A stretch of DNA of 33,405 bases from positions 1 to 33,405 of IMG/VR virus record IMGVR_UViG_3300046373_000037. One strand, 5' to 3'. The position numbers and the translations under genes were made by a program. Below are positions 2,565 to 20,695 of the stretch, one piece after another. Under the pieces are notes generated by a model that was not told the DNA's origin, did not search any database, and saw nothing but the letters and a program-made list of their open reading frames with translations. This stretch comes from a virus. Positions within the stretch are counted from its first letter, which is position 1; the number at the start of each line of letters is the position of its first letter.

Positions 2565-3188
2565 ATGACAACCAAAGCCTATCCCAGCGAACTCCAAGAC
2601 CGTTTCATCGTCCGCCTTCCCGACGGCATGCGCGATGAGATCGCTCGCGCTGCAAAAGCCAACGGTCGCAGCATGAACGCGGAAGTTGTCGCGCGTCTTA
2701 GCGCGCCCAACATGGGCGCCATGGCTTCAGACGTCATTGGCGCAATCACTCTACTTCAACAGCAAGTCGCTCGAGCCGAGGTGGAGGAGGTGCGCTTATG
2801 CGCAGACATGGGGATCGTCGCTCGCTGCTTCCTTATGTGTATTGATGAGCTTCCCAACGATGCTATCGATCCGGACACCAATTTCGCTCGTGACTTGAAA
2901 GAGTGGCGCGCGATGGCGGAACAAAAATATTTGTTAGCGGAAGCGAAAGTCGCAAAAACCGATGTTGTGGCGATGGTGGAGCGCCTTCAAATGTTGTCCG
3001 AGCAGGCTGACAAGATGTTTCCTGATGCTGTTGAGCCAACTGACGCGCCCAACTCCTTCGCAAATCCACCTCCACGCAGAATGAACACTAAGCGCAACAA
3101 GACCCAAACAAAGCCTGAACCTTCGCCCGAGCCAAAACCTGTCCAGCGCAAACTCAAATTCCGCTCGTCCGACCCCACCAAAAAATAA
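2565..3188 (+). CDS. RHH (Arc/Mnt-like) repressor with long C-terminal extension
   Basis: The protein is 207 residues. Residues 11-46 (DRFIVRLPDGMRDEIARAAK followed by ANGRSMNAEVVARLSA) form a clear Arc-type ribbon-helix-helix DNA-binding domain: strand, helix, turn with SMN, helix. Residues about 50-145 are mostly helical and may oligomerise. Residues 150-207 are a disordered, basic Pro/Lys-rich tail (repeated KP/EP). Mnt and Arc of P22 are only 83 and 53 residues, so the extension is unusual. It is transcribed away from the BRO antirepressor across shared operators, the Mnt position in P22. No Shine-Dalgarno sequence precedes the ATG, so translation may be weak or near-leaderless. Repressing the antirepressor operon is the inferred job. 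Confidence 0.8.
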   Translation: MTTKAYPSELQDRFIVRLPDGMRDEIARAAKANGRSMNAEVVARLSAPNMGAMASDVIGAITLLQQQVARAEVEEVRLCADMGIVARCFLMCIDELPNDAIDPDTNFARDLKEWRAMAEQKYLLAEAKVAKTDVVAMVERLQMLSEQADKMFPDAVEPTDAPNSFANPPPRRMNTKRNKTQTKPEPSPEPKPVQRKLKFRSSDPTKK

Positions 3189-3790: not shown

Positions 3791-6586
3791 TCAGGGCTGC
3801 TTACTTCTGCCGATAGCCAGCGCCCGGATTGCGCCCGACATTTCCGGCGCACCAATCAACCCGCCATTTTTAAAGCTACGGAATATCTTGCTGCTGCCGC
3901 CCTGATTGAATGCACTTTGCGCCATCAGGTCATGGACCGGGCTTCCAGTATCAGCGCCTCCCACAGCGATAGCTGGCATTTGATTGAACTGCTGAGCAGC
4001 AGCAATTCGCTCTGGAATCGTGTCCTTGGTCATCATGTAGTTAATCTGATCATGAACCGGGCTCGATGCAGGCAGCAGGCGATTGACTGTCCTTGAATCA
4101 AATGGGGCAGGAACTTCATTCGGCGCGTCCAACCCCGGTGATACATCAAGTCCGGGCGAAACCGCATACGGATCGGGAGCGATGAGGCCGCCGTTGGCGT
4201 ACCCGAGTTCCTGCGTGTCGTAGCCCATTGACTCGAGTCCAAGCCCTTCATTCTGTCGGGTTGTCGCCGCTGCCATCATTACACTTTCAGCGCCCTGCTG
4301 CTGCGCCTGCTGCGCGCTGACCGCCCCTACGTGCTGCGCCTGTGCTGCTGCTTCGTCATCACCAATCATGCCGCCGTCGGCAAAGCCGGGTTGTTTGCCC
4401 TTGCGGTCATTCGGTACGCCAACCATGGCCGGCGCCAGCAGTGGCACTGCCGACGGCGACAGGCGCTTTACAGCATCTGCCATTGGCTGCGCGATGGCGG
4501 GTCGCGCGCTTACCGCGCCATTTAGGAGGGACTGGACCGGGCGGGCGTACAACGCCCCGCCGCCAATCAGGGCCGCCGGGATGGCTGGATTCAACACCCC
4601 GGAAGCGAGCGCACCAGCACCCCACATCATCCGCCCTGCCGTCCCGGAATCGGGAATCTTGTCGCCAAGTACGGTCTGTCCGGCCTTGCTCAAGTCCTGC
4701 ATGAGTGACTGCCCGCGTGCGGTTGCGTTGTCTCTCGCGGAGCCATCGGCCGCTCGTACTGCTTGGTTCAACTGCCCAGGAGTAAACACGCCCTCTTTCT
4801 GAACTCCCCTGTTGGCCGCATTCTCTACGCGGACGAGGTTGGCCCAGCCTTCGTTGATCTTCTTCAGTTGCGGCGCTTCGTTCGGATTGGATCGGGTTAG
4901 TGCGCCACGGAAGGAGTCCAACGCATCGCCCAGTGCGCTGCCCAACTTCTTCTGGTAACCGTCGGTGGCTCCCGAGAAGTTTGTTGCATCATTGCGAAGG
5001 GAGGATTCCAACACCTTGAAGTCCTTGCCTGACATCGTGCCAGTCTGACCGAAGCCATCCAGATGACCCTTGATCAGTGAATTGAACATGTCCGTCTCCT
5101 GCGGGCGCAGGCTGTGACTGGCTGCGATGCGTGACAGATCATTGACCATTTGCTGGTCGGGGCGGAACGTCATCCCGGTCAGCAGGTTGTCATAGGCGCC
5201 GCTGAGCGCCTGGTGCGCGGCATCCACGCCTTCATGCCCAATGCCGTCCACTTTTACGCCGATCGGCGCAGTGGCGCGGTTGATCGCCGCATTATTGAAT
5301 TCATCCCGTGCCTGCCCGCGCGCGCGCCGGATCATGTCGCCCATGATTGGCATTCCCTGCAGTTTTTCCTCGGTGGCGTTGGCCCAACCTCCCAGCGTCT
5401 GCCCGATCGTTGGAGTAACGCCCTCATCTTTGAGCAGTTGCACCCTCGGATTTACCGAAGCATTCGGACTGATCAGGCGCGAGATTGCGCCAGCGGCTAC
5501 GGGGATAGCCCCACCAACGGCGGCACCGGCGCCGACCTGCTGTGCCTTATCGGACCAGAAGTCATCCGATGCGACTGGCGTAAGTGCGCCGGATGCTGCG
5601 CCGGATGCAGCGCCAAGCCCAACGCGCCCGATAGGCGAGGCGGCCTGCGGGACGCGGGATGCGGCAACAACGTTTGCAGGGCTCAGGATGTTTCCGAGTG
5701 CGCGGTAACCGTCGATGCCAGTCTCGCCGTTTGCGGTACGGGCCTGCTCATAGGCCTGCTCGCGCTGCTTGATCTCGTTGGCAATTCCGCCTTCTGGCAT
5801 GCGGGGCAATATTCCGCCAGTCTTGTCGGATGCCCAGTTGGCGACATTGGCGATCGTATTGTTGACCGAGTCCGGTAGTGCCTTCGTTATCAACTGCGAT
5901 GCAGCGGCAATCGGGTCCATCGCGCCATGTAGGAACGATACGGTGCGCTGCGGCAGCGGATTGCCATTGATGTCGGTCGTCACCGACAGGCCGGTAGGCT
6001 TGGCCGCCGTAGGCGCCGCGGCTGGTTCCGATTGTGCGGCTGCTGCTGCCGGCTGCGCGAATGGATCGTGATCGACTTCGGTAAAGGTCGGGCCAGCGTT
6101 CTTCGGGATACGAGCGGCCACCTGCTGGCCATATTGCAGCGTGGTCGGCGCATTCGGATTGCGCGGGTCAGCCACGGCAACACCCTGCCGGGCCTTCTCC
6201 AGTCCGCCCGGGCCACCATAGTAGCCAGCCGCGGTCAGCGCCGGGTCGCCGCCAGCCTTGTCGTACATCTGGCTGATGTAGCGTACGCCGGCCCGGGCAT
6301 TGTGCTCCGGGTTGTTGATGTCCCATCCCTGATCGGCCACGCTCTTGAACGTCGACGGAATCACCTGCATACCGCCGACCGCCCCAGCGTTCGACGTCTT
6401 TGTATTGCGCCCGCTGCCCGACTCCTGCTGGTAGATGCTGCGCGCAATGGCAGCGACCGGCGCTGGCGTGCCTTCTGCAGCAAGGGCGTTGTCCAGCGGC
6501 GAGGTCTTTGCTACCGGCGCACTCCCGCCGGTAGAGGGCGCCGGGGCGGCAAACGGGTCGTGATCAACTTCCGTAAAGGTAGGCAT
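3791..6586 (-). CDS. ejection protein with lytic transglycosylase domain
   Basis: The protein is 931 residues. Residues about 40-130 are an SLT-type lysozyme-like domain: IARSIYQQESGSG with the likely catalytic Glu55, then GAVGGMQVIPSTF, NNPEHNARAGVRYISQMY and a YYGGPGGL end. This domain opens peptidoglycan during DNA entry. It is flanked by two copies of TFTEVDHDPFA (residues 3-13 and 167-177). Residues about 380-650 (DEGVTPTIGQTLGG onward) resemble a helical region common in phage internal virion proteins. A hydrophobic Gly/Ala stretch near 660-690 may insert in membrane. The C-terminal part carries three motifs FADGGMI, YANGGLI and FKNGGLI (residues about 735, 796, 905). The start overlaps the previous stop as TAATG. 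It is the last late gene, analogous in place to P22 gene 16. Confidence 0.85.
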   Translation of the reverse strand: MPTFTEVDHDPFAAPAPSTGGSAPVAKTSPLDNALAAEGTPAPVAAIARSIYQQESGSGRNTKTSNAGAVGGMQVIPSTFKSVADQGWDINNPEHNARAGVRYISQMYDKAGGDPALTAAGYYGGPGGLEKARQGVAVADPRNPNAPTTLQYGQQVAARIPKNAGPTFTEVDHDPFAQPAAAAAQSEPAAAPTAAKPTGLSVTTDINGNPLPQRTVSFLHGAMDPIAAASQLITKALPDSVNNTIANVANWASDKTGGILPRMPEGGIANEIKQREQAYEQARTANGETGIDGYRALGNILSPANVVAASRVPQAASPIGRVGLGAASGAASGALTPVASDDFWSDKAQQVGAGAAVGGAIPVAAGAISRLISPNASVNPRVQLLKDEGVTPTIGQTLGGWANATEEKLQGMPIMGDMIRRARGQARDEFNNAAINRATAPIGVKVDGIGHEGVDAAHQALSGAYDNLLTGMTFRPDQQMVNDLSRIAASHSLRPQETDMFNSLIKGHLDGFGQTGTMSGKDFKVLESSLRNDATNFSGATDGYQKKLGSALGDALDSFRGALTRSNPNEAPQLKKINEGWANLVRVENAANRGVQKEGVFTPGQLNQAVRAADGSARDNATARGQSLMQDLSKAGQTVLGDKIPDSGTAGRMMWGAGALASGVLNPAIPAALIGGGALYARPVQSLLNGAVSARPAIAQPMADAVKRLSPSAVPLLAPAMVGVPNDRKGKQPGFADGGMIGDDEAAAQAQHVGAVSAQQAQQQGAESVMMAAATTRQNEGLGLESMGYDTQELGYANGGLIAPDPYAVSPGLDVSPGLDAPNEVPAPFDSRTVNRLLPASSPVHDQINYMMTKDTIPERIAAAQQFNQMPAIAVGGADTGSPVHDLMAQSAFNQGGSSKIFRSFKNGGLIGAPEMSGAIRALAIGRSKQP

Positions 6587-8517
6587 TATTCTTTCACCAT
6601 GGCGTATTTACCGTTGGGCTGCTTGACGTAGTAATTGCCGTCCGGGGCCAGCTTGGCTTCGGTTTTCGTGCCGTTGAATGGCACGACCTTGACCGCCGGT
6701 TGTTGTGCGCCTGCGGGAGCGCCGCTTGCTGTTGCTGTCCCATCCGACTTCGGCGCAAAGTGCTCGCGCCAGTCCTTGCGCGCTGGGTTCAGGTCGAACG
6801 TGCCGGCCTTCTCCTTCGATGGGTCGAAGATCGGGTTCTTGTCGACGTATTCCTTCCAGTAGCGCTCCGAACCGGCAAGTGTGCGGTTCTGCTCGAGGTA
6901 CGTTTGGCGGAAATTCGCATAGTCTTGCTGCTGCTTGGCGTTCGCAATAATGCCCTTGGCAATGTTCGCGTTGGTTTCCTGTGGCTTGTCCACGCCGATG
7001 GTGGCCCGTCCGAACAGCCGCATGTCGGAGTCGGACGAGCTGCCAGAACCAGCCGGGCGCGCATTCGGCGTGAGCTTGGAGGTGATGGCCTCCATCGTTG
7101 CATAGTCGGGGCTGAATCCTTTTGCCCACCGACCCACTCCGGTTTTATCGATAACGCCGCCGGTGCTGTTTTTCTGGTTCAGTTCGAGGAACTGCTTGGC
7201 GTCCTGCGCCGTAAGGGCCAGCGCCCGCGCCGCATCGCTGTCCTTCTCGACTTCCTTGCCGCCGCGCGCGATCTCGGCCGCCTGGACCTTGTTGGCGTCG
7301 CGCGAATTGGTCTGCCCTGTCCATGGCTTCACTGCCGGCACCGGCACGCCAAGGATCGGCGCAGTTGCCGGCGCATCCGTTTCGGCGACGCCATTGGTGA
7401 CCCGTGCCACGTCGACCTTGCCCTTGTTTTCTTCCTTGACCTTGGCGATCTCAGCGGCGGACTTTGCTGCCATTGGATCGGCCGCATTGACCGCATTCTG
7501 CGTCTGCGCTGCCTGGTACTTGGCAATCGCATCAGGGCCACCGTCAGCGATGTCCCTTGGCACTTCCTGCATATACCCAGATGCCTGCCCGGCAGTGGGG
7601 TTAGGCTGGGCGACAGTCTGCGTCAATCCACGAATCACGCTCACCGGCTGCTGGTCCTGCCCGGCCTGTGCGCTCTGCTGGTTGAACTGCTGCACGTCAT
7701 CTGGCAAGCCCTGCCCGCTCATCAGGCCGGGGCGCAGGTCGGTCGTCGTGCCGTCAGCCCGGTAAGCCTTCGAGCTTTCGGAACCACCGCCGAATGTGGC
7801 AAAGCCGATCCGCGCCTGTGGCTGGCCGCCTGATGGCCCGCCGACATTGAGGAATGAACCGCCGCCGCTATCGGCGGGTTGTGTGATGTCCTGCTGCGGG
7901 CCCATCTTCTGGCGGATGATGTCGCCGATCGGATCGCCTTCACGGTAGGCCTGGTTCTGATTGTTCGTCAGGTTCTGTGCGCGATAGGCGTCGTCGTATT
8001 GCGGCATCAGCGCGGCGATGGGACTCGGCGGATTGACCGACCCACGGCCAGCGCCAGCAGTCGAGTTGCCTGACTGCGCAATCACTGGCACATTCAGCGG
8101 TCCGTTCGCCGTACGGGCAGTCTGCGCCACGTCGGCGATCTTCTGCGGCTGCTGGGCGGCGCTCAAGATGTTGGCGGCCAGGCCATCGTCGCCGATAGAC
8201 GTTTTGAAGTAATCGGGATTAGTAGCGACGCCACCTGTCGCAGCGCCCGTTGCTGCTGCGCCGCCGGCGAGCAGGCCGATTGCGCCAGCGGCCAGACCAG
8301 CCGGCGCCATGCCGGCGGCGCGAGACAGCGGACCAGCGGGCTGTGTCGCAGGAGCGGCCAGCCGGGGCACATCAGCAGGCGCAGCGAGCTGTGGCGCGCT
8401 TTCCGGCGTATAGAACGGCACCTGCTGCGCCGGCAGATTGCCCGAGCCGGCAAGGCGGGCAATAGACCCTGGCCGACGCGATTGCGAAGGATCGGTGAGT
8501 GCGTCGAGAAGTTCCAT
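6586..8517 (-). CDS. putative ejection (internal virion) protein
   Basis: The protein is 643 residues with an Ala/Gln/Pro-rich, low-complexity N-terminal half. Residues about 68-97 are an Ala/Gly-rich hydrophobic segment (GLAAGAIGLLAGGAAATGAA) of the kind seen in proteins that insert into the cell envelope on infection. The middle is rich in NQ and likely flexible. Residues about 480-600 (LTPNARPAGSGSSSDSDMRL, then KQQQDYANFRQTYLEQN and WKEYVDKNPIFDP) resemble a conserved region I recall in podovirus ejection proteins. It is coupled by TAATG to the transglycosylase gene and follows the giant repeat protein by two bases. P22 gp7/gp20 are functional analogues by position; homology cannot be judged here. 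Confidence 0.65.
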   Translation of the reverse strand: MELLDALTDPSQSRRPGSIARLAGSGNLPAQQVPFYTPESAPQLAAPADVPRLAAPATQPAGPLSRAAGMAPAGLAAGAIGLLAGGAAATGAATGGVATNPDYFKTSIGDDGLAANILSAAQQPQKIADVAQTARTANGPLNVPVIAQSGNSTAGAGRGSVNPPSPIAALMPQYDDAYRAQNLTNNQNQAYREGDPIGDIIRQKMGPQQDITQPADSGGGSFLNVGGPSGGQPQARIGFATFGGGSESSKAYRADGTTTDLRPGLMSGQGLPDDVQQFNQQSAQAGQDQQPVSVIRGLTQTVAQPNPTAGQASGYMQEVPRDIADGGPDAIAKYQAAQTQNAVNAADPMAAKSAAEIAKVKEENKGKVDVARVTNGVAETDAPATAPILGVPVPAVKPWTGQTNSRDANKVQAAEIARGGKEVEKDSDAARALALTAQDAKQFLELNQKNSTGGVIDKTGVGRWAKGFSPDYATMEAITSKLTPNARPAGSGSSSDSDMRLFGRATIGVDKPQETNANIAKGIIANAKQQQDYANFRQTYLEQNRTLAGSERYWKEYVDKNPIFDPSKEKAGTFDLNPARKDWREHFAPKSDGTATASGAPAGAQQPAVKVVPFNGTKTEAKLAPDGNYYVKQPNGKYAMVKE

Positions 8518-8519
8518 GC

Positions 8520-11500
8520 CTATGATCCTTTGTGCGTGGTGATGTCGCTGTAGCTGACGCCGAAGCTCGTGCTGCCGGAGTTCGACGCACTGTTGCTGGC
8601 GCTGTTGGTCGCCGCATTGCTGCTGCTGTTGCTTGCCGAATTGCTGCTGTTGTTCGAGGCTGAATTACTGCTGCTGTTGCTCGAATTGTTCGAGGACGAA
8701 TTGCTGCTCGAATTGCTGCTGCTGTTGGAGGATGCATTGCTGCTCGAGTTGCTCGAACTGTTGCTGGACGAGTTCGACACACCCGACGAAATCGACGCAT
8801 GCACTGACCGCGCCGATAGCGCCGCTGCCGCCAGTTGACCGGCGACCTGGCCTGCCGCCCGCAATGACGCCTGCGCCGTTTCGGCCGCGCTCATCGCCAC
8901 CTTCAGGTTCGCCTCGCCCGCCTGCAGCGCCAGTTGCGCCTGCGAGGTGTAGACCGCTGTCGTCGCCTTCACGACCTCGACCTGCGCCTTGGTGTGCTCG
9001 TTCTTCGCGCCTTCGGTCGCTGCATAGGCCTTGACCTTGGTGTCGAACACGCCGACCACCGCGCGCAATCGCTCCGCTTCCGCAGAGACGCCAGCCTGAT
9101 AGGACTGCACCTGCGTCTTGAACGACTCCAGCGGGAATTCGGCCAACTGCTTGAAGTTCAAGTTCGCCTCGCCGAGCTTGGCGGTCACCAGGGTGCCGTA
9201 GGCGTCCACGCGGCTCTTGTAGGCGCCGACCTGCTGACCGAAGGCGTCGAGCTTGATCGACTCGGCCTTGACCCGGGTGCTGTACGCCTCATACTCCGAA
9301 GCCTTCGCCTTCACCAGGCTGTCGAAGCCGAGCAGCTGGTTGCGGTAGATTTCCGACTGCACCAGTTCGGCCTTGACCTGTTGTTCGTAATTATTGAACT
9401 CGGAATCCTTTGCCTTGATCTGCGCATCAAAGCCGGACAACTGCGCCTTATAAACCTCGATTTTATTGAGTTCCGCACGGATGCGCGAGTCATATCCCTG
9501 GTATTCCAACGCTTTCGCACGTACCAGCGATTCGAAGCCGGCAAGCTGGTCCTTGAAGATCTCGGCCTTTTGGGCCTGACCCTTCAACTGCGCGTCGTAG
9601 TTCGCGTATTCCGCTTCCTTCGCTTTGACCTGGCTGTCGAAGCCGAGTAATTCCGCCTTGAACGCCTCGATCTTGTTGAGCTCGTTGCGCGACAGGATGG
9701 CGAAGTTTTCAAACTCCTGGCCCTTGGCTTTGACTTGAGCTTCGAAGCCACTGATTTCGGCCCGGTAAATGTCGGCCTTGACTGCTTCGGCCCGGCTCTG
9801 GGCCTCGTAATTGCTGTATTCCTGACCCTTGGCCTTGACGCTGGAGTCATAACCGAGCAGCTGGGCGCGGAACACCTCGATCTCGTTCAACTGAGTCTTG
9901 CTCAAGGTGGCGAACGCTTCGTACTCGGCCGCCTTGGCACGTACCTGGCTGTCGAAGCCAGCCACTTCGGCCTTGTACAGTTCAGCCTCGATACCTTGGG
10001 CGTCAACCTGTGCCTTGTAGGTCGCCACGTCGCTGTCACGGGCCTTGATCTGCGCTTCATACCCGGCCAGCAGCGCGCGATACACTTCAACCTTGTTCAG
10101 TTCGGCTTTGGTCTGCGCGGTGTAATTCTCAAACTCGGCCGATTTGGCCCGGACAGTCGAATCGAACCCGGCAACCTCGGCCTTGTAAATGTCGGCCTTG
10201 ATGCTCTCGCCCTCGAGCTGGGCCTTGTAATTCTGGTATTCGCTGTCCTTGGCCTTAATCTGGCTTTCATACCCGATCAGTTCGGCCTTGTAGACTTCGA
10301 CCAGATTCAACTGTACCTGCGACAGCGTCTTGTAATTGTCGAACTCGGCGATCTTCGCGCGCACGGTCGAATCGAAGCCGGCCAATGACGCCTTGTAGAT
10401 CTCGGCCATCACGTTCTGTGCATCGACTTGTGCCTTATACGCGGCGAATTCGGCTTCCTTGCCACGAATCTGCGCCTCGTATCCGGCAATCTCGGCCTGG
10501 TACAGCGCAATCTTGCGGGCGTCGACTTGAGATTGTGCGGCATAGTTTTCGTATTCGGCCCGCTTGGCCTCGACCTGCGCCTGAAATCCGGCGATCTGCG
10601 CCTTGAACAGGTCGGCAGAAATGCCCTGAGCCCGGTATTGCGCCTCGTAGTGGGCAAATTCGCTGTCCTTGGCCTTCACCAGCGAATCGAACCCGGCCAG
10701 CGCCGCTCTGAACACTTCCACCTTGTTCAGTTCGGTCTTGCTAACCGTGGCGTAATTGTCATACTCGGCCGACTTGGCGCGCACCAGTGCGTCAAAGCCG
10801 ACCATCTGCGCCTTGTACAGCTCGCCCTTGATGGATTCGCCTTCAATTTGGGCCTTATAGCCCTCGTATTCAGCGGATTTTGCCCTGATCTTGCTGTCCA
10901 CTCCGCCCAGTTGCGCGGTGAATAGTTCGACCTTCGCCAATTCGCCCTTGACGCGGGTCGCATAGCCTTCGAACTCGGTGCTTTTCGCTTTCACCTGCGA
11001 GTCATAGCCCTGCAGCTGGGACCGGAACACTTCAACCTTGCTCATGTCGGCATCGATCCGCACTTTCACGGCTTCGACACGGGTCCGGTAGATTTCGGCC
11101 ATCGATTTGACCGCATCGATCTGCGCGGTGTAGACGGCCACCGCCTGCTGGTTGATCTCGCCGACCAGCTTCTGCCCTTCCAGTTCGGCCTTGTAGATGT
11201 CCAGTTGCGCCAATGCCGCGTCTAGGCGGGTCTTGAACACTTGCGCGCGCACGCCGAATGCCGAGACGTCCGCATTGAACAGCGCGACCCGGGCGTTGAA
11301 GATGTCGACCACGGCCTGGAACGTGAATTTCGCTGCGTCCAGCGCGCGATTCTGAACCTGGTTGAAATGCTCGATCAGGCGCGACTCCAGCTGCATGGCC
11401 AGGTTGAACGCGAACTGGAAATTGCTCTGTTCGAGCTCAGCCTGCTTGATCATCACGTCGCGGGACAGTGCGCCGTCGGCATTCATGCCCTCCTGCATCG

Positions 11501-13337
11501 CCTGCTGGATCAGTCTTGCCAGCGTGCCGCCGGGAATCTTGAACCCTTTGCTGGCGAACAGCCGGGTCGCTTCCTCGACGCCGCGCTGCGTAATAAGTGC
11601 CTGGCGATCGCGGCCGCGGTTCCAGATCGCCGCTTCGACATCCGGGTTCAGGCCGGTGGACGCGCCATTCACGAATTCGACCAGCCGGCCATTCATCGCG
11701 CCCAGCAACGTCGTGTTGTACTCGACCTCGGCCCAGTTGAATGTCGCTTCCGGCGCTGCGGGCGCATTGCCCAACACATCGGTGAAGGCGGGAATGTCAA
11801 TAATCGGTGCGGTCGGCAGGTTCAGGCCGGCCAGCGTCGGCACGCCCGGCAGCGTGAAATCCGGCTCGGTTGGCAGCACGATGTCGGACAGCACCGGCGC
11901 AGCAGGCAGCAGACCATTGAATGCATCCGGTGCGGCGATGTCGGTCAGTGTGGGCGCATCTGGCACGACCACTGACAAGGCCGACGGCACAACCAGCGCG
12001 GTCAGCGTTGGCGCATCCGGTGCAGTAACGGCAAACGCGGACGGGATGGCGACTTCGTTCAGGGTCGGCAGCGTCGGGATGGTGGCGCTCAGTTCGCCCG
12101 GCACTGCGACAACGTTAATGACCGGCGCAGTCGGTACGACAGCGGCCAGCGCACCCGGCACGGTGATGTCGTTGAGCGTCGGTGCGGCCGGCGCCAGTGC
12201 ATCCAGCGCGGTCGGTACGGCCACGACATTCAGTGTCGGCGCTACAGGCGCAGTCACGTTCAGCGCAGCGGGGGCAGTCAGCGGATCAAGCGTCGGCGCG
12301 GTCGGTAGCACGGCAGACAGCGCGCCGGGAATGGCAATCGGCGTCAGCGTCGGCGCAATCGGCGCGGTCACGGCCAGCGGCGAGGGGGCAGCGATGTCGG
12401 CAACGTTCGGGGCACCCGGCAGCGTGGCATTCAGCGCAGTCGGCACCGGCACGGCGTCCAGCGTGGGCGCGAGCGGCGCGGTGGCGGTCAGCGCGCCGGG
12501 CTGCGCAATCGGGATCAGGGTCGGCGCGACAGGCAACGGCGTGTCCAACGCATTCGGTACTGCGATGACGTTGATCAGCGGCGCGGCCGGCGCGGTCACG
12601 TTGAAGGCAGACGGCGCTGCCGGGCTATTCAGTGTCGGTGCGGTCGGCAAGGCTGCGGCCAATGCGCCCGGGACCGCGATGTCGAGGATCGACGGCGCAG
12701 CCGGGAACTGGCCGGAGAACGCTTCCGGCGCCGCCACGTCGGCCAGGGTCGGCGTCGCCGGGAGGGTCGCATTCAGTGGCGATGGCACGGCCACGGCATT
12801 GATCACAGGCGCGGCGGGCAGGACAGCCGCCAGCGGGTCCGGCAGCGGCACGTCAATCAGTAGTGGCGACGCAAGATCAAAGGTTGGCGCGTCGGCAATC
12901 GACAGCGCCGGCAGGCCGCCGATGGTGGGTGCAGTCGGGGCATTCGGGAAGCTTGCGTTGAGCCCGGTCGGCTCAGTCGGCGCGGCGCCCAGTGGATCAA
13001 TGGTCAGCGCCGGGATCGGGATCGACGGCATGTTGACCAGCGGCAGGGCCACGGTGAAATGGCCCAGTTGCGTGATGGCGCTGACGGCAGCTTGCTGCGA
13101 CTGCTGCGCCATGCTGTCGGCGGCTGCCATGTAGGTCGGCACCAGGCCGTCGGCCGCGTTCTGCAGCCACGGGGCCGTTTCTGCGGCGGCCGGCGGTTCG
13201 GCACGCGGCGCGGCGTCGGCTCGTGCCGCATCGGCTACCCGGGCCGCCTCTTTTGCTGGGGCGGCAGGGAACGGGGGTGCTGCTGGCCCTACCGGGGGTA
13301 CAGGGGCCGGCGCACCGATGCTTCCACTTATTGCCAT
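8520..13337 (-). CDS. giant periodic virion protein (Pro repeats, long helical repeats, Ser/Asn tail)
   Basis: The protein is 1605 residues and of no family I can name. In order: residues 1-90 Pro/Ala-rich; 174-515 eighteen contiguous 19-residue repeats of the form PxAPTLxxIAxPxAL; 530-765 a non-repeating, mostly helical part; 767-1361 seventeen contiguous 35-residue repeats (KVEVFRAQLxGFDSxVKAKxxEY type) with alternating A and B forms; 1362-1515 further helix; 1521-1590 SSNS-type tetrads; then SFGVSYSDITTHKGS. Thirty-five is five heptads, so a long coiled coil is likely. AAGGAG lies seven bases before the ATG. Between a propeller-like tail protein and ejection proteins, it should be a tail fibre, whisker or internal rod. 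A tape measure is less likely because no tail tube gene is seen. Confidence 0.8.
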   Translation of the reverse strand: MAISGSIGAPAPVPPVGPAAPPFPAAPAKEAARVADAARADAAPRAEPPAAAETAPWLQNAADGLVPTYMAAADSMAQQSQQAAVSAITQLGHFTVALPLVNMPSIPIPALTIDPLGAAPTEPTGLNASFPNAPTAPTIGGLPALSIADAPTFDLASPLLIDVPLPDPLAAVLPAAPVINAVAVPSPLNATLPATPTLADVAAPEAFSGQFPAAPSILDIAVPGALAAALPTAPTLNSPAAPSAFNVTAPAAPLINVIAVPNALDTPLPVAPTLIPIAQPGALTATAPLAPTLDAVPVPTALNATLPGAPNVADIAAPSPLAVTAPIAPTLTPIAIPGALSAVLPTAPTLDPLTAPAALNVTAPVAPTLNVVAVPTALDALAPAAPTLNDITVPGALAAVVPTAPVINVVAVPGELSATIPTLPTLNEVAIPSAFAVTAPDAPTLTALVVPSALSVVVPDAPTLTDIAAPDAFNGLLPAAPVLSDIVLPTEPDFTLPGVPTLAGLNLPTAPIIDIPAFTDVLGNAPAAPEATFNWAEVEYNTTLLGAMNGRLVEFVNGASTGLNPDVEAAIWNRGRDRQALITQRGVEEATRLFASKGFKIPGGTLARLIQQAMQEGMNADGALSRDVMIKQAELEQSNFQFAFNLAMQLESRLIEHFNQVQNRALDAAKFTFQAVVDIFNARVALFNADVSAFGVRAQVFKTRLDAALAQLDIYKAELEGQKLVGEINQQAVAVYTAQIDAVKSMAEIYRTRVEAVKVRIDADMSKVEVFRSQLQGYDSQVKAKSTEFEGYATRVKGELAKVELFTAQLGGVDSKIRAKSAEYEGYKAQIEGESIKGELYKAQMVGFDALVRAKSAEYDNYATVSKTELNKVEVFRAALAGFDSLVKAKDSEFAHYEAQYRAQGISADLFKAQIAGFQAQVEAKRAEYENYAAQSQVDARKIALYQAEIAGYEAQIRGKEAEFAAYKAQVDAQNVMAEIYKASLAGFDSTVRAKIAEFDNYKTLSQVQLNLVEVYKAELIGYESQIKAKDSEYQNYKAQLEGESIKADIYKAEVAGFDSTVRAKSAEFENYTAQTKAELNKVEVYRALLAGYEAQIKARDSDVATYKAQVDAQGIEAELYKAEVAGFDSQVRAKAAEYEAFATLSKTQLNEIEVFRAQLLGYDSSVKAKGQEYSNYEAQSRAEAVKADIYRAEISGFEAQVKAKGQEFENFAILSRNELNKIEAFKAELLGFDSQVKAKEAEYANYDAQLKGQAQKAEIFKDQLAGFESLVRAKALEYQGYDSRIRAELNKIEVYKAQLSGFDAQIKAKDSEFNNYEQQVKAELVQSEIYRNQLLGFDSLVKAKASEYEAYSTRVKAESIKLDAFGQQVGAYKSRVDAYGTLVTAKLGEANLNFKQLAEFPLESFKTQVQSYQAGVSAEAERLRAVVGVFDTKVKAYAATEGAKNEHTKAQVEVVKATTAVYTSQAQLALQAGEANLKVAMSAAETAQASLRAAGQVAGQLAAAALSARSVHASISSGVSNSSSNSSSNSSSNASSNSSSNSSSNSSSNNSSNSSSNSASNNSSNSASNSSSNAATNSASNSASNSGSTSFGVSYSDITTHKGS
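8568..8777 (-). repeat. Ser/Asn tetrad tail (12-bp coding minisatellite)
   Basis: About 70 residues at the end of the giant protein consist of Ser with Asn at nearly every fourth position (SSNS units, sometimes NSSN or SASN). The DNA therefore repeats roughly every 12 bases. Such a stretch is a flexible linker and can change length by slippage. Confidence 0.85.
9255..11039 (-). repeat. 17 tandem coding repeats of exactly 105 bp (35 residues)
   Basis: Residues 767-1361 of the giant protein divide into 17 units of 35 residues with no insertion or deletion. Conserved positions are a Tyr/Phe near position 5, Gly-Phe/Tyr at 11-12, Ala-Lys at 18-19, Glu-Tyr/Phe at 22-23 and Tyr/Phe at 26. Over most of the array, units ending ELN-like alternate with units ending ESI- or QGI-like, giving a 70-residue (210-bp) higher period. 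Confidence 0.9.
11793..12818 (-). repeat. 18 tandem coding repeats of exactly 57 bp (19 residues)
   Basis: Residues 174-515 of the giant protein divide into 18 units of 19 residues without indels. Each begins Pro-x-Ala-Pro and has a second Pro at position 12, usually followed by x-Ala-Leu. Short hydrophobic strands between prolines suggest an extended or beta-solenoid-like rod. Confidence 0.9.
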
Positions 13338-13385: not shown

Positions 13386-15035
13386 TTAAACGGCGGACAG
13401 GTCCAACTCAACGCCGGCGTCCTCCTGAATTTTGGTTTGGCGCAGCATGCCGATGACGTAGGAGGCACCGATCACGTTGTGGCCCTCGAGTACCGTGTCG
13501 CTCTGGATACCGATGTTGTGGGGGGCTTCCTCATAGCGCACCAGGAGCCGCCCGTTGTAGAGTTGCTGCCCGCGCGTGGCGACATAGGTTGCCGGATCAG
13601 GGCGCTTGGCAAACGGGTAAAAGAATTCCGGGATCGGAACGCCCAGGCAGTCGACGGCGCTGACGACCCAGGCGCCACTGCCATCGGCCATCAGCACCAC
13701 CACGGCATCGCTGACCGGGTCATACTGGATGCCGCCGTCGTAGTCGGTCCAGACATCGTTCGCCAGGGACTGCATGACTGACATGTCGCGGGTGCCGAAG
13801 CCGCCGTCGACCGTGACGGTTTCCCATGCCGGGTTCGCCGCGCCCGGGTCATAGCGGTACACCACGATGGACGAGATCGGCGGCGTCAGCACCGACTGCA
13901 GCAGCCACAGCGCGCCGCCCTGGTCGCACACGATCTCGACCAGGTACACGTTCTCGGTCGGCGGCAACGGGTAGACCAAACTTTTCCCGGTGGCGATGCC
14001 GATGCGGCGCACGCCGCTGATATGGCTGGCGCCGGTGTCGGTTTCAACGACTATCAGGTCGCCGTCGGGGGTCGGGCAGGCGGCCAGTGCACCGAAGCCG
14101 GCGCCGTAGTTCATGGTCGTGCCCTGCGTCAGCGTCTTGGTATCGATGCCATATAAATCATTGCTGGTCTGGCTGCTGAAATTGGCCAGCAGCAGGCCAT
14201 TGATCGTGCCCGGGCTGATGTCGGTATAGCGCTCGTGGATCGAGACGTTCGGATCAGCCGAGGACGGGAAGGTGACCCGCGCCGGCCCGTTCTTCGCGTC
14301 CCAGTACGTCACGCCGTAGATTGTGTAGCTGTTGACCGCATAGGCACCCTGGCCGTCGAGCAGGAAGAACCGCCCGGTGCCACTATCCCACTGCATGCGT
14401 TGCGTGTAAAGCGGCGGGAACGCCAGCTCGAACGCGCCGCCCTGCGCCAGCGTGTCCGGGTCGTACAAATACATCACGCTCACATGCGTGAATGCCGGGC
14501 CGACATACGGGCCATTGAGCCATCCGCCCATGTAGATCGTGTCCGTGTCGTTGACCATCGGGCCGTAAGTGTGGTGACCGAACAGGGGCGGCGAATAGGC
14601 TTCCTGGTCCGGCTCCCACACGCAGTATTCCCGCGTCAGCGGCCGGTATTCCGGCTCCTTGTGCGACACCGGCGGCTCGAAGGCAAAGCGCGTGCCTTCT
14701 CCCTCGAAGCTGGTCGACGCCGGCAGCGGGATCTCGCGCGGCACCGGCGCCGCTGGCAGCTGGCTCGATGCGGTGATCCGCACCGTGTCATGGCCGTCAT
14801 TCGTCAGCGTCTCGATGCGCGTGCCATCCGGCAGCACCTGGTCGGCGCGGAAGAAGCCGCCCGGCTGCCCTTCGGCGATGCGCTCGTTTACGCCGTGCCG
14901 GATTCTCATGCTGCCGAGGACTTGCCGCGCCTGATCAATATATCCCTTGGCGGCTTCCTCGTCGCCATAGAACTCGGCGCGCAGCCAGCCCGAGGATTGT
15001 GCCTCGTTGAATACCAGGTCGGGCTTGTCGCTCAT
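13386..15035 (-). CDS. tail-associated protein, probable beta-propeller
   Basis: The 549-residue protein has no family I can name. From about residue 130 it is rich in beta strands with repeated aromatic, Gly and Asp turns (VSVMYLYDPDTLAQGGAF, GRFFLLDGQGAYAVNSYTIY, LIVVETDTGASHISGVRRIG, ALWLLQSV), the look of a WD/kelch-like propeller that reads out observed values. It overlaps the upstream 984-residue gene by ATGA, so the two are likely made in fixed ratio. Placed among large fibre-like genes, it is probably part of the tail or host-recognition apparatus. Enzyme residues are not evident. Confidence 0.6.
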   Translation of the reverse strand: MSDKPDLVFNEAQSSGWLRAEFYGDEEAAKGYIDQARQVLGSMRIRHGVNERIAEGQPGGFFRADQVLPDGTRIETLTNDGHDTVRITASSQLPAAPVPREIPLPASTSFEGEGTRFAFEPPVSHKEPEYRPLTREYCVWEPDQEAYSPPLFGHHTYGPMVNDTDTIYMGGWLNGPYVGPAFTHVSVMYLYDPDTLAQGGAFELAFPPLYTQRMQWDSGTGRFFLLDGQGAYAVNSYTIYGVTYWDAKNGPARVTFPSSADPNVSIHERYTDISPGTINGLLLANFSSQTSNDLYGIDTKTLTQGTTMNYGAGFGALAACPTPDGDLIVVETDTGASHISGVRRIGIATGKSLVYPLPPTENVYLVEIVCDQGGALWLLQSVLTPPISSIVVYRYDPGAANPAWETVTVDGGFGTRDMSVMQSLANDVWTDYDGGIQYDPVSDAVVVLMADGSGAWVVSAVDCLGVPIPEFFYPFAKRPDPATYVATRGQQLYNGRLLVRYEEAPHNIGIQSDTVLEGHNVIGASYVIGMLRQTKIQEDAGVELDLSAV

Positions 15036-17986
15036 CCGATTTTCCGGGACAGCGGCTGCACGTCCAGCGACAGGTTATCCAGCGCGAAGTCGGCGCCGTC
15101 CCGGTTCGCCAGCTTCCACTGCCAGTACTTGCCATCGACGCCCCTGCCGAATTTCACGCGGCTGGCGTGGATCTGGTCGAGGCGGCGCGGTTCGAGCTTG
15201 TAGACATACTCGTGGTGCTCGTCGGTGATCATGGTCAGATCGAGCGCGCCAGCGGCACGGTAGCCGACATACCCGGCTAGCACGCGCTTGAACTGCGGTG
15301 CGCCTAGGTCGGACACGCCGCCGGTGACTTCTGCCGTGATCGGGGTGCCCATGTCGGTGTCGCCGGTTAGCGCGACGATGCCCGAAGCGGTGGCCGCCAG
15401 CACCATACCGTTGAACTCTGTGAGGCTGTTGAATCCGAGCCCGTCATAGGTCGACACTGCCCGGGTATGCGTATTGAGCGCGACGCCGACGAAGACCGGG
15501 TCGAGCACGCCGGCAATGCCGGAGGCGTCCATCGACAGTACCGGCAGAGAGATCGTAGCTGTGCCCACCGTGTCCGCAAAGCCCTGCGCATCCACGCGCA
15601 TGAGCGGGACCGTTATGGCAGCGCTGCCCATGTTGCCCGGCTCGCCGGCTGCGTCGACGCTTGCCGGTTCCAGCGTGATGGCGCCGGTCGCAATCGCGCT
15701 CGCAAAGCCGGTGCCGACTGCCGATAGGACGGAAAATTGCAGGTTGCCAGCGGCGATCGTGTCGCTGTACGCCGTCGCGGACGCTGTGACCTGCGCCAAC
15801 GTTGCTGCGCCGCTGGACATCGTGCCGGTCAGGCCTGCGCCTGATGCCTGCAGCGGAGAGAGGGCCGCGTCGCCGTCGCTGGTCGTCGGTGCGCCGCCAA
15901 ACAGCAGCGCGCCCGAAGCCGTCATGGCGGACAGTGCCGCCGCGCCGTCAGAGATGGTTTCGGTCAGGCCGGATGCAGACAGCGTTACGATCGGCAGGGC
16001 CACTGCGCCAGCGCCGAGGTTGCCGGTGATACTGACAGCGCTCACGGTCGGCTGCGCCAGGATTGCCGCGCCGTCGCTGAAGGTGTCCGACCGGCTGGTC
16101 ATGTCTGCGGCCAGCGTGATGGCGGCCAGATCGGCCGCGCCCGTTGCCAGGGTTTCCGCGAAGCCGGCAGCAACCAGGCTCACAGGCTGCACGAACGCTG
16201 CGCCATCGGATACGCTGCCCGCTATGCCGGCGCCACTGGTCATCGCCGCCAGCGGCAGAGTAATGGCACCGTCGCCCGCATTGTCCGGTGGTGGTGCTGT
16301 GGCGATGCCGGCCAAGGTCATCGGCACCAGGGCAAGATTGCCCGCGGCGACCGCACCGGCAAAGCCGGAGGCAATCGCATCCAGCGGCAGCAGTGGCGCA
16401 TCGCCGTCTGCAATGTTGCTGGCAAATGCGCTGCCGCCGGCCTGCATGAGTTCCAGCACGGCCGCGCCATCGGCCACCAGGCCGCGCAGCATGACGCCGG
16501 ATGCATCCAGCCCGGTGATTGCCGCATTGCCCGTTGCCGGCAGTGCGTCCACCGTGGCAGTCGCGTTCAGCGTGATCTTTTCCAGCAGGAGTGTGGCATC
16601 GCCGGCAAGGCCTGCGGTGCCCGAGGCGCCCACCGTCATCGGCAGCAGGCTGGCTGCGCCGGCGGCATCGGTCAACGCCGACACGTCCAGCAGCGGCAGC
16701 AGGACCGCGCCATCGGCTGCCGTACCGGCGATCATGGCACCGTTTGCATCCATCGATGTCGCCTGGCTATCACCGAAGCCGACATTGCCCGCATAGCCAA
16801 TACTCGTCAGGGTCAGCAGCGCCAGCGCGGGCGGCGGCTCAAGACTGCCGGCCAGGGTAGGTGGCAGCAGGGGCACTGCGCCGTCGCTGACCGTGCCCAC
16901 TACACCAAAGCCCGCCATATCCAGCGGCGGCAGCGCCAGCGGGCCTTCCAGCGAGCCCGCAATGTCCGGGCTGGTGATGGATAAATCGCCATTGATTGTC
17001 ACGCCGACAGCAGTCTGGCTTGCTGTGCCGGCAACGCTAAAAAACCCGAGGGAGACGTTGCCGTTGTTGCCGGCTACGACTGGTGCGTTGGTGATGGCCT
17101 GCGCGGCGGTACTGCGGGCGATCGTGTAGGTTTGGTCAGCAGAACCGGACTGTCCGGTTCGCGTATCGGCAACGATCCACGCCAGCGTGGTCGGGTCGTA
17201 GTATTCGAGCGTAAAGTTGCTCGGCATCGCGGCGGCAGATTCCGGCCGGATGTAATAGGTCAGCGCCTCGTACACCTTCCCAGTTGGGAATGTGTAGGTT
17301 AGCGTTGCAGCAGTCACGCCATCCGAGTGCCAGGCAGTGGAGGAATTGTTGTCGTCCGTGGCATAGCTGGCTGGGAATCCCGTAGCAACCGACAATGCCG
17401 AGGACGTGCCGCCATAGTTCGAGTCCATGAACCCGTACAGGCCGTTCCCGCTGCCCAACTGCCAGTCGAGAATGCCGATGTAGGCTGCCCCGTTGTTGCC
17501 GGTGATGTTCAGGCGCCACTGTTCGGACGCCTCGTTGAACAGGCCGGTGTGGGTATCGTAGCCGGTGGCGCCGATGGTGTATTCGCGGGTCTGGAACGCG
17601 GTCCAGCCGGTTTGTGCGGTGCGGGTATCGACAACGACCCAGGCCGTGCCGTTGAAATATTCAAAGGTGAAATCTTTGGGGGAAAACGTCGGGTCAGCGT
17701 CGCCCTTGATGACGAACGAAACAATCCCTTGTGCAGCAGAATAGGTGGCGCTCCAGGCCGAGGCAGTGATGCCAGACGTGGTGCGCCAACCGGTGAAGAC
17801 ATCACCGTCCTTTGCCGCATTGGCATTATGGGAAAAGTCTGCCGCATCATCGGCAGCAAACGACGTGCCGCTCGGGAAATCGGCAGGCACTCCAACCGTT
17901 TGGCGGAACTGGAAGTCCGTTACGCCCAGTTGGGCGCCGCCATTGTTGGCGGTGACGTTGATGCGCCATTGGGTTGAAGTAGCCAT
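15032..17986 (-). CDS. tail fibre-like protein with two discoidin-like domains and repeats of about 22 residues
   Basis: The protein is 984 residues. Two tandem jelly-roll modules open it, about 1-145 and 150-300, each beginning with the same signature (QWRINVTANNGGAQLG and QWRLNITGNNGAAYIG) and containing FxFEYFNGTAW / FTLEYYDPTTLAW and VDTRT/ADTRT strands. They resemble F5/8 type C or other galactose-binding folds and may bind glycans. Residues about 311-829 are degenerate Ala/Gly/Leu repeats of 21-24 residues, often starting DGAA or DGDA. Residues 830-984 (FVGVALNTHTRAVSTYDGLG, GVSDLGAPQFKRV, RVKFGRG, KYWQWKLANRDGADF) form a C-terminal domain that I recall at the end of many phage tail proteins. 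GGAG precedes the ATG by about ten bases. Host recognition or adhesion is the likely role. Confidence 0.7.
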   Translation of the reverse strand: MATSTQWRINVTANNGGAQLGVTDFQFRQTVGVPADFPSGTSFAADDAADFSHNANAAKDGDVFTGWRTTSGITASAWSATYSAAQGIVSFVIKGDADPTFSPKDFTFEYFNGTAWVVVDTRTAQTGWTAFQTREYTIGATGYDTHTGLFNEASEQWRLNITGNNGAAYIGILDWQLGSGNGLYGFMDSNYGGTSSALSVATGFPASYATDDNNSSTAWHSDGVTAATLTYTFPTGKVYEALTYYIRPESAAAMPSNFTLEYYDPTTLAWIVADTRTGQSGSADQTYTIARSTAAQAITNAPVVAGNNGNVSLGFFSVAGTASQTAVGVTINGDLSITSPDIAGSLEGPLALPPLDMAGFGVVGTVSDGAVPLLPPTLAGSLEPPPALALLTLTSIGYAGNVGFGDSQATSMDANGAMIAGTAADGAVLLPLLDVSALTDAAGAASLLPMTVGASGTAGLAGDATLLLEKITLNATATVDALPATGNAAITGLDASGVMLRGLVADGAAVLELMQAGGSAFASNIADGDAPLLPLDAIASGFAGAVAAGNLALVPMTLAGIATAPPPDNAGDGAITLPLAAMTSGAGIAGSVSDGAAFVQPVSLVAAGFAETLATGAADLAAITLAADMTSRSDTFSDGAAILAQPTVSAVSITGNLGAGAVALPIVTLSASGLTETISDGAAALSAMTASGALLFGGAPTTSDGDAALSPLQASGAGLTGTMSSGAATLAQVTASATAYSDTIAAGNLQFSVLSAVGTGFASAIATGAITLEPASVDAAGEPGNMGSAAITVPLMRVDAQGFADTVGTATISLPVLSMDASGIAGVLDPVFVGVALNTHTRAVSTYDGLGFNSLTEFNGMVLAATASGIVALTGDTDMGTPITAEVTGGVSDLGAPQFKRVLAGYVGYRAAGALDLTMITDEHHEYVYKLEPRRLDQIHASRVKFGRGVDGKYWQWKLANRDGADFALDNLSLDVQPLSRKIG
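15500..17056 (-). repeat. degenerate coding repeats of about 22 residues
   Basis: Residues 311-829 of the 984-residue protein are a run of units such as DGAAVLELMQAGGSAFASNIA and DGAAFVQPVSLVAAGFAETLA. Unit length varies between 21 and 24 residues, unlike the strict repeats of the 1605-residue protein. A beta-solenoid or stacked-strand shaft is plausible. Confidence 0.75.
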
Positions 17987-20062: not shown

Positions 20063-20258
20063 GGCGGAAGACCCAGAAGGCAGCGCGGATGCGATCCGTC
20101 AGGGAACGCTTCGCCGCCATTTGGGCCGACACTTCACGAGCGGCTCGAAGCGACGCATGCGCTGTCTCGTTACTTGCTTTCGCCCCAAGGTATATCAGTC
20201 GCGCTGCCTCGACCTTTGCGGCATCTTGATATGTCTGCTCGACAAATTGTTTGTCCAT
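20055..20258 (-). CDS. unknown 67-residue helical protein
   Basis: A small, Ala-rich, probably all-helical protein (FVEQTYQDAAKVEAARLIYL, then SLRAAREVSAQMAAKRSLTDRI). It starts at an ATG that overlaps the stop of the Ntn hydrolase gene (TAATG) and ends inside the start of the 402-residue gene, so all three are translationally linked. The family is not recognised. A small virion or partner protein of the hydrolase is possible. Confidence 0.6.
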   Translation of the reverse strand: MDKQFVEQTYQDAAKVEAARLIYLGAKASNETAHASLRAAREVSAQMAAKRSLTDRIRAAFWVFRHG

Positions 20259-20695
20259 TATTTGGGCTCCAAGGTGTCGATTCCCTTCCCGCAGAAAACA
20301 TCAAGCGCGCAAGCAACCTCAACGGCGCGGCGGGCACCATGCCCCAGATAAAGGGCTGCGAGAGCGTAATCTCGTCCAGAGCCCATCGCGATAAATGACT
20401 CCTCGCACGGCTCTGGGTAGGGGCCGCCCGTGCCTGAATACTCGAAAATTTTCCCCTCATTGTTGATGAACAGAATGTCAGCAGTCGACCCCGGGTCGCG
20501 ACTAGCCGGCCAGGTATCCAGATTGCGCCCCGCTTTGATCCAGTCCAATAGCGCCATGCCGTGCGTCGGGCTACCCGCAAAACCAACTAGGCCATCATTG
20601 ACTCGAAATATTTTAGTAACCGCGGTCGCATACCCGGACGAGGTGCATTGCTTGTCGGCGGCCAACGTCTTTCCATCCCATGCGATGACTGTCAT
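20258..20695 (-). CDS. proteasome/HslV-like Ntn hydrolase
   Basis: The 145-residue protein begins MTVIAWDGKTLAADKQ. Removal of Met would expose Thr2 as an N-terminal nucleophile, as in HslV and proteasome beta subunits. Other matching features are Asp14 (LAADKQ), Lys28 (AVTKIF), a VGFAGSPTHG segment like HslV's AGFAGG, and AMGSGRDYALAALYLG with Ser106 in a GSG motif, followed by AVEVACALD and a GKGIDTL end. HslV is about 175 residues, so this is a compact form. Phage copies of this superfamily exist, but their role is poorly known. Placed between the adaptor and tail genes, it could be a virion maturation protease or act on host proteins. The Shine-Dalgarno is weak. Confidence 0.8.
   Translation of the reverse strand: MTVIAWDGKTLAADKQCTSSGYATAVTKIFRVNDGLVGFAGSPTHGMALLDWIKAGRNLDTWPASRDPGSTADILFINNEGKIFEYSGTGGPYPEPCEESFIAMGSGRDYALAALYLGHGARRAVEVACALDVFCGKGIDTLEPK

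Follow-up and report, generated by a model that had tools for sequence, protein, structure and literature searches.

The 1605-residue protein encoded in the analysed stretch of viral DNA (33,405 bases, here called the window) is probably a tail-fibre subunit built as a two-strand ruler, in which a heptad helix and an extended proline chain of the same polypeptide lie antiparallel to each other; we give this reading a probability of roughly 0.6. Because the helix units are matched unit for unit by proline units, the polypeptide probably doubles back to form a fibre of more than 100 nm. The matching proline array, which the initial annotation had missed, is the main clue to the mechanism.

Genome Context and Protein Architecture

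The minus strand of the window carries a cluster of podovirus late genes. These encode both terminase subunits (small and large), a P22-type portal, a scaffold-like protein, a major head protein, an SU10-type adaptor and Hc3; several tail proteins follow. The gene of the 1605-residue protein comes after that of the head-closure protein Hc3, among the tail genes, as it does in the F116-like family. It belongs to PHROG 10969, a family of unknown function whose architecture it has in common. No tape-measure profile matched the protein, and no tail-tube family was found among the window proteins scanned, in which the P22-like portal, SU10 adaptor and Hc3 were detected. From the N to the C terminus, the parts of the protein are an N-terminal helix, the proline array, a core domain, the heptad helix, a C-terminal motif and a Ser/Asn-rich tail. 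The features are as follows.

8520..13337 (minus strand): gene of the 1605-residue two-array protein (open reading frame; match to PHROG 10969, E = 4.1e-126)
13059..13151 (minus strand): N-terminal amphipathic helix ending in LGxF (N anchor), residues 63–93, aligned across homologues
11730..13067 (minus strand): proline-rich segment, residues 91–536 (P = 446)
11814..12839 (minus strand): 18 indel-free 19-residue units, equal to nine 38-residue units, residues 167–508; Pro at unit positions 8, 11, and 19 in 18/18
11418..11729 (minus strand): conserved helical core domain, about residues 537–640, with motifs TGLxPxVExAxxxRxRxR and GFxxPxGxL
9210..11099 (minus strand): nine 70-residue heptad units counted from the core, residues 747–1376
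9255..11039 (minus strand): 17 units of 35 residues, residues 767–1361
8790..8837 (minus strand): conserved C-terminal motif QLAAAALSARSVHASI (C anchor), residues 1501–1516
8523..8789 (minus strand): Ser/Asn-rich variable C-terminal tail, residues 1517–1605
15032..17986 (minus strand): 984-residue neighbour, with a C-terminal domain related to KPP25 ORF005

The core domain aligns to residues 97–216 of KPP25 ORF003 (PDB 26la chain X, E = 2.6e-14). ORF003 is a short homologue of 318 residues that shares the core with the window protein and differs from it in lacking a proline array and having only a short helix after the core. Both ORF003 and ORF005 are chains of PDB entries 26la and 44nx. The presence of ORF003 in solved structures and the annotation of several homologues as "structural protein" support the designation "virion protein" given in the initial annotation, and the assignment to the virion tail is likewise supported. 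A role as an internal protein that is ejected and lengthens into the envelope, instead of as an external fibre, is the least likely of the alternatives considered: a gene for a predicted transglycosylase/ejection protein (3791–6586) lies close by, but the KPP25 homologue shares its PDB entries with a relative of the tail-cluster neighbour, and electron microscopy (EM) of F116-like phages has revealed external long fibres.

Elsewhere in the window, a gene for an HslV/proteasome-like peptidase (20258–20695, minus strand; PHROG 1040, PF00227) is located amid the virion genes. The end of the record carries antirepressor-type genes (426–1199 and 1692–2597, both minus strand; Rha/KilAC and Bro-N) and a gene for an Arc-like repressor (2565–3188, plus strand).

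Two Indel-Free Arrays

Residues 767–1361 divide into 17 units of 35 residues without a gap. Self-identity of this 595-residue array is 0.38 at lag 35, 0.49 at lag 70, 0.47 at lag 140 and 0.49 at lag 210, against a maximum of 0.12 in 1000 shuffles, so that both the 17 indel-free units and the 70-residue superperiod reported in the initial annotation are borne out. Position 11 of the unit is Gly in all 17 units, while Ala at position 18, Lys at 19 and Glu at 22 each occur in 16/17; positions 5, 12, 23, and 26 are aromatic in 66 of the 68 cells. Neither Pro nor Cys occurs within the 595 residues. The hydrophobic period is 3.50, with a nearly constant phase (spread of about 40 degrees or less) between residues ~671 and ~1405, indicating that the regular helix exceeds the 17 units; upstream of them, weaker 35-residue units continue. 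Since neighbouring helix units share only 51–64% of their DNA sequence, the array appears to be old, and neither a recent expansion nor an assembly artefact. Pfam matches of the array (Fez1, TPPII, and DZIP3) were all weak and below the cut-off and were read as coiled-coil noise; a PDB match to Cag19 (E = 0.001) was taken as noise from heptad composition.

The second array, in residues 91–536, is also free of indels and has a period of 19 residues, with identities of 0.35–0.41 at lags 19–152 compared to a shuffle maximum of 0.20. It comprises at least 18 units, every one of them containing a PxxP motif.

Length Law Across Homologues

The same plan is shared by F116-like phages, Shewanella phage Y11, Pseudoalteromonas phage Y7 and many metagenomic viruses; a scan of genome contigs for relatives gave one weak match only. 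Array lengths were measured with profile anchors, used after regular expressions for the core motifs had failed, P being the distance from the end of the N-terminal helix to the core and H that from the core to the C-terminal motif. In 113 unique complete homologues of PHROG 10969, spanning (P,H) from (38,198) to (636,1314), H = 1.816 P + 135 with r = 0.998. The controls gave r = 0.09 for H versus the N-terminal extension and r = 0.20 for H versus the C-terminal tail. Correction for phylogeny by independent contrasts left r = 0.996 and a slope of 1.81, with 15 length-class changes on the tree. Even very short members (L119, L120, L209, L213, and L214; H 198–249, P 38–68) obey this law. Most homologues stay at H 402–405 and P 141–152 despite deep divergence (identities of ~25–30%).

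Members of the window protein's class have (P,H) of (142,404), (294,684), (370,824), (446,964), or (636,1314). The steps are exact, +38k in P and +70k in H with k = 0, 4, 6, 8, and 13, apart from one off-by-one exception, L010. The window protein thus exceeds the short members of its class by 8 x 38 residues in P and 8 x 70 in H. Other lineages have helix/proline unit pairs of 42/23, 39/21, and 103/55 (the last from L116 and L095), with ratios of 1.83–1.87. Unit length therefore does not drift freely among homologues: it is 35, 39, 42 or 103 according to lineage, but each protein keeps strictly to its own value, and the proline unit matches it. The quantised array length, the constant heptad phase and the conservation of H in most homologues support two further proposals of the initial annotation, namely selection on register and a long heptad rod, whose straightness is presumed.

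The F116-like (Hollowayvirus) "LigA"/structural proteins resemble the window protein end to end, with an N-terminal helix, proline segment, core, heptad helix and C-terminal motif. Unlike it, they have a constant short form (P = 148, H = 402) with few or no recognisable repeats. In phage F116 itself (NC_006552, F116p57; L006 9178–10992), the gene has an apparent frameshift at about residue 273 relative to LKA5, and the rest is in another frame.

The exception, L010 (IMGVR_UViG_3300046615_000334, ORF 6007–11364), has 11 proline units of 38 residues against 10 helix units of 70. Its units are nearly homogenised, with one Pro per helix unit. Collapse during assembly is unlikely, as nucleotide identity does not exceed 0.89 and the longest exact match is 29. 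Pro also recurs in register within the helix arrays of other members, every 103 residues in L095 and L116 and mostly every 42 in L016, compared with every 70 in L010; this pattern suggests periodic kinks, and the helix may be kinked at these places. Both the unit mismatch of L010 and these helix prolines speak against the proposed ruler.

At a helix rise of 0.1485 nm, each residue of the proline chain spans 0.26–0.28 nm in the long forms, which is close to the value for an extended or polyproline II chain wound on a helix. The case for pairing of the two arrays, in length and in unit order, is strong.

Strand Direction and Partner of the Proline Chain

A chain turning at the core would bring together proline and helix units of equal rank, both counted from the core. 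Mantel tests of unit similarity gave 0.59 (p = 0.003) for the antiparallel and 0.26 (p = 0.15) for the parallel order in the window protein (P0001). The corresponding values are 0.55 (p = 0.0005) versus 0.22 in L011 and 0.80 (p = 0.008) versus 0.48 in L012; in L013 alone the signal was not significant. The similarity matrices of the two arrays of L010 likewise correlate in the antiparallel order, and less in the parallel one, and its homogenised blocks, counted from the core, comprise 3/7/1 proline units and 3/6/1 helix units. The mirror order of unit similarity is thus antiparallel. The parallel order, weaker in each protein compared, was rejected; a further point against it is that no linker separates the proline array from the core.

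Hairpins of both strands, the proline chain and the helix each running out and back to form a bundle half as long, would satisfy the length law and the antiparallel order of units equally well; each 70/38 step would then add 35/19 residues per arm. In a low-confidence AlphaFold model of L048 the helix is interrupted at residues 435–475, and hairpin coiled coils are among the nominally best fold matches of this model, none of them significant. Neither array, however, has a turn-like interruption mid-way, the near-identical units of L010 span the would-be tip, and the heptad phase of the window protein is constant through the middle. Such a bundle is predicted to reach 25–37 nm, leaving tails of 66–72 nm unexplained. 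We regard hairpins as unlikely, although as the best of the alternatives.

Slightly less probable still is pairing between chains, in which the subunits would form a multi-chain coiled coil and each proline chain would lie on the helix of its neighbour. The length law would be the same, and the aromatic seam of the heptad helix is compatible with an oligomer. Two tandem paralogues (~775 and ~724 residues) are present in the metagenomic viral contigs L017, L099, L101–L107, L113, and L115, and wherever both are measurable their rods are of equal length, 404 and 405; this equality in some soil phages suggests possible hetero-oligomers. The direct junction of proline array and core, on the other hand, makes the protein's own helix reachable without a linker.

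Proposed Fibre and Its Dimensions

In the two-strand ruler within one chain, the N-terminal proline-rich chain would be extended, probably with polyproline II-like geometry, and would lie antiparallel along the very long heptad helix, the turn being made at the conserved core domain. The two strands would lock together in steps of ~10.4 nm, each made of 38 residues of the proline chain and 70 of the helix, with the aromatic residues of the heptads probably seated against the PxxP motifs, so that both strands together would set the length of the fibre. The core may occupy the tail-proximal end, and the N-terminal helix and the Ser/Asn-rich C terminus the far end. The Ser/Asn-rich tail (8523–8789, minus strand) contains SNSSSNSSSN, varies strongly in length and composition among relatives and is a possible tip.

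AlphaFold models of L048 and L012 were poor (pLDDT 68 and 48; pTM 0.26–0.27), with the helix broken at low-confidence places and the proline chain left as coil. A helix was predicted at residues 60–92 of L012, the place of the N anchor. A Foldseek search with the low-confidence L048 model gave no significant match.

Read as a straight rod, the fibre of the window protein would measure ~133–143 nm and that of F116-like phages ~50–60 nm. The ~90 nm helix of the initial annotation counted only the clearest units and is too short by this estimate. By EM, F116-like phages are podoviruses with a thin 66-nm "tail." Phage phiC725A, of the F116 type, whose member of the family has 630 residues and H of ~402, has a tail of 66 nm and a head of 78 nm, while phage Y11 (H = 570), described as siphoviral, has a tail of 72.2 nm and a head of 57.8 nm (PMC10846135). 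The tail/head ratios of the two phages differ by a factor of 1.48 and their helices by 1.42 (1.50 without the core); this agreement with the prediction supports the proposed fibre, on two phages only and with different head-size calibration. USP_25 (H ~402) has been called a myovirus by EM (PMC7573221). VvAW1 was dropped as a short-tail control, its F116-like genes apparently not being the structural ones. Because phiC725A requires type IV pili, reaching the pili or the host surface is a plausible role of the fibre.

Comparison With Known Systems

Among long helical phage parts whose length matters are tail needles of the P22 gp26 type and tape-measure proteins. The window protein has no sequence match to them and differs in having two matched arrays instead of one helix. 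A search of the literature for KPP25 cryo-EM or for a phage fibre of helix and polyproline II found none.

A close parallel may be antigen I/II (SpaP) of streptococci, whose stalk of more than 50 nm pairs an alanine-rich heptad helix with a proline chain across a globular domain, heptad tyrosines locking into PxxP pockets (PMC7732690). The window protein resembles it in its heptad aromatic residues (positions 5, 12, 23, and 26), a PxxP motif in each unit and matched lengths. No homology to antigen I/II was detected in Pfam at E <= 0.1, and no antigen I/II chain was retrieved in PDB sequence searches. The order of parts is also reversed: antigen I/II runs helix (A), globular (V), proline (P) and carries LPXTG, whereas the window protein runs proline, core, helix and ends in SYSDITTHKGS, without LPXTG. 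It further differs in being a phage virion protein with many more, strictly quantised units. With homology undetectable and the order reversed, the comparison would concern how the two stalks work and not membership in one family.

A further reading, for which we see even odds, is a viral antiparallel helix/polyproline stalk convergent with antigen I/II, extended in 10.4-nm steps by two distant, co-expanding arrays of one gene; some podoviruses would then have fibres of 50–195 nm, which have been taken wrongly for long tails.

If correct, the two-strand ruler would provide a function and a fold for a large family of functionally uncharacterised phage proteins and would explain why EM studies have classed F116-like podoviruses as sipho- or myoviruses. 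Two arrays separated by hundreds of residues within one gene would have to change length together, and the ~15 size changes, with at least one off-by-one exception (L010), make this co-evolution of paired repeats directly testable. The ruler would also suggest that a stalk chemistry of heptad aromatic residues and PxxP motifs arose independently in bacteria and phages.
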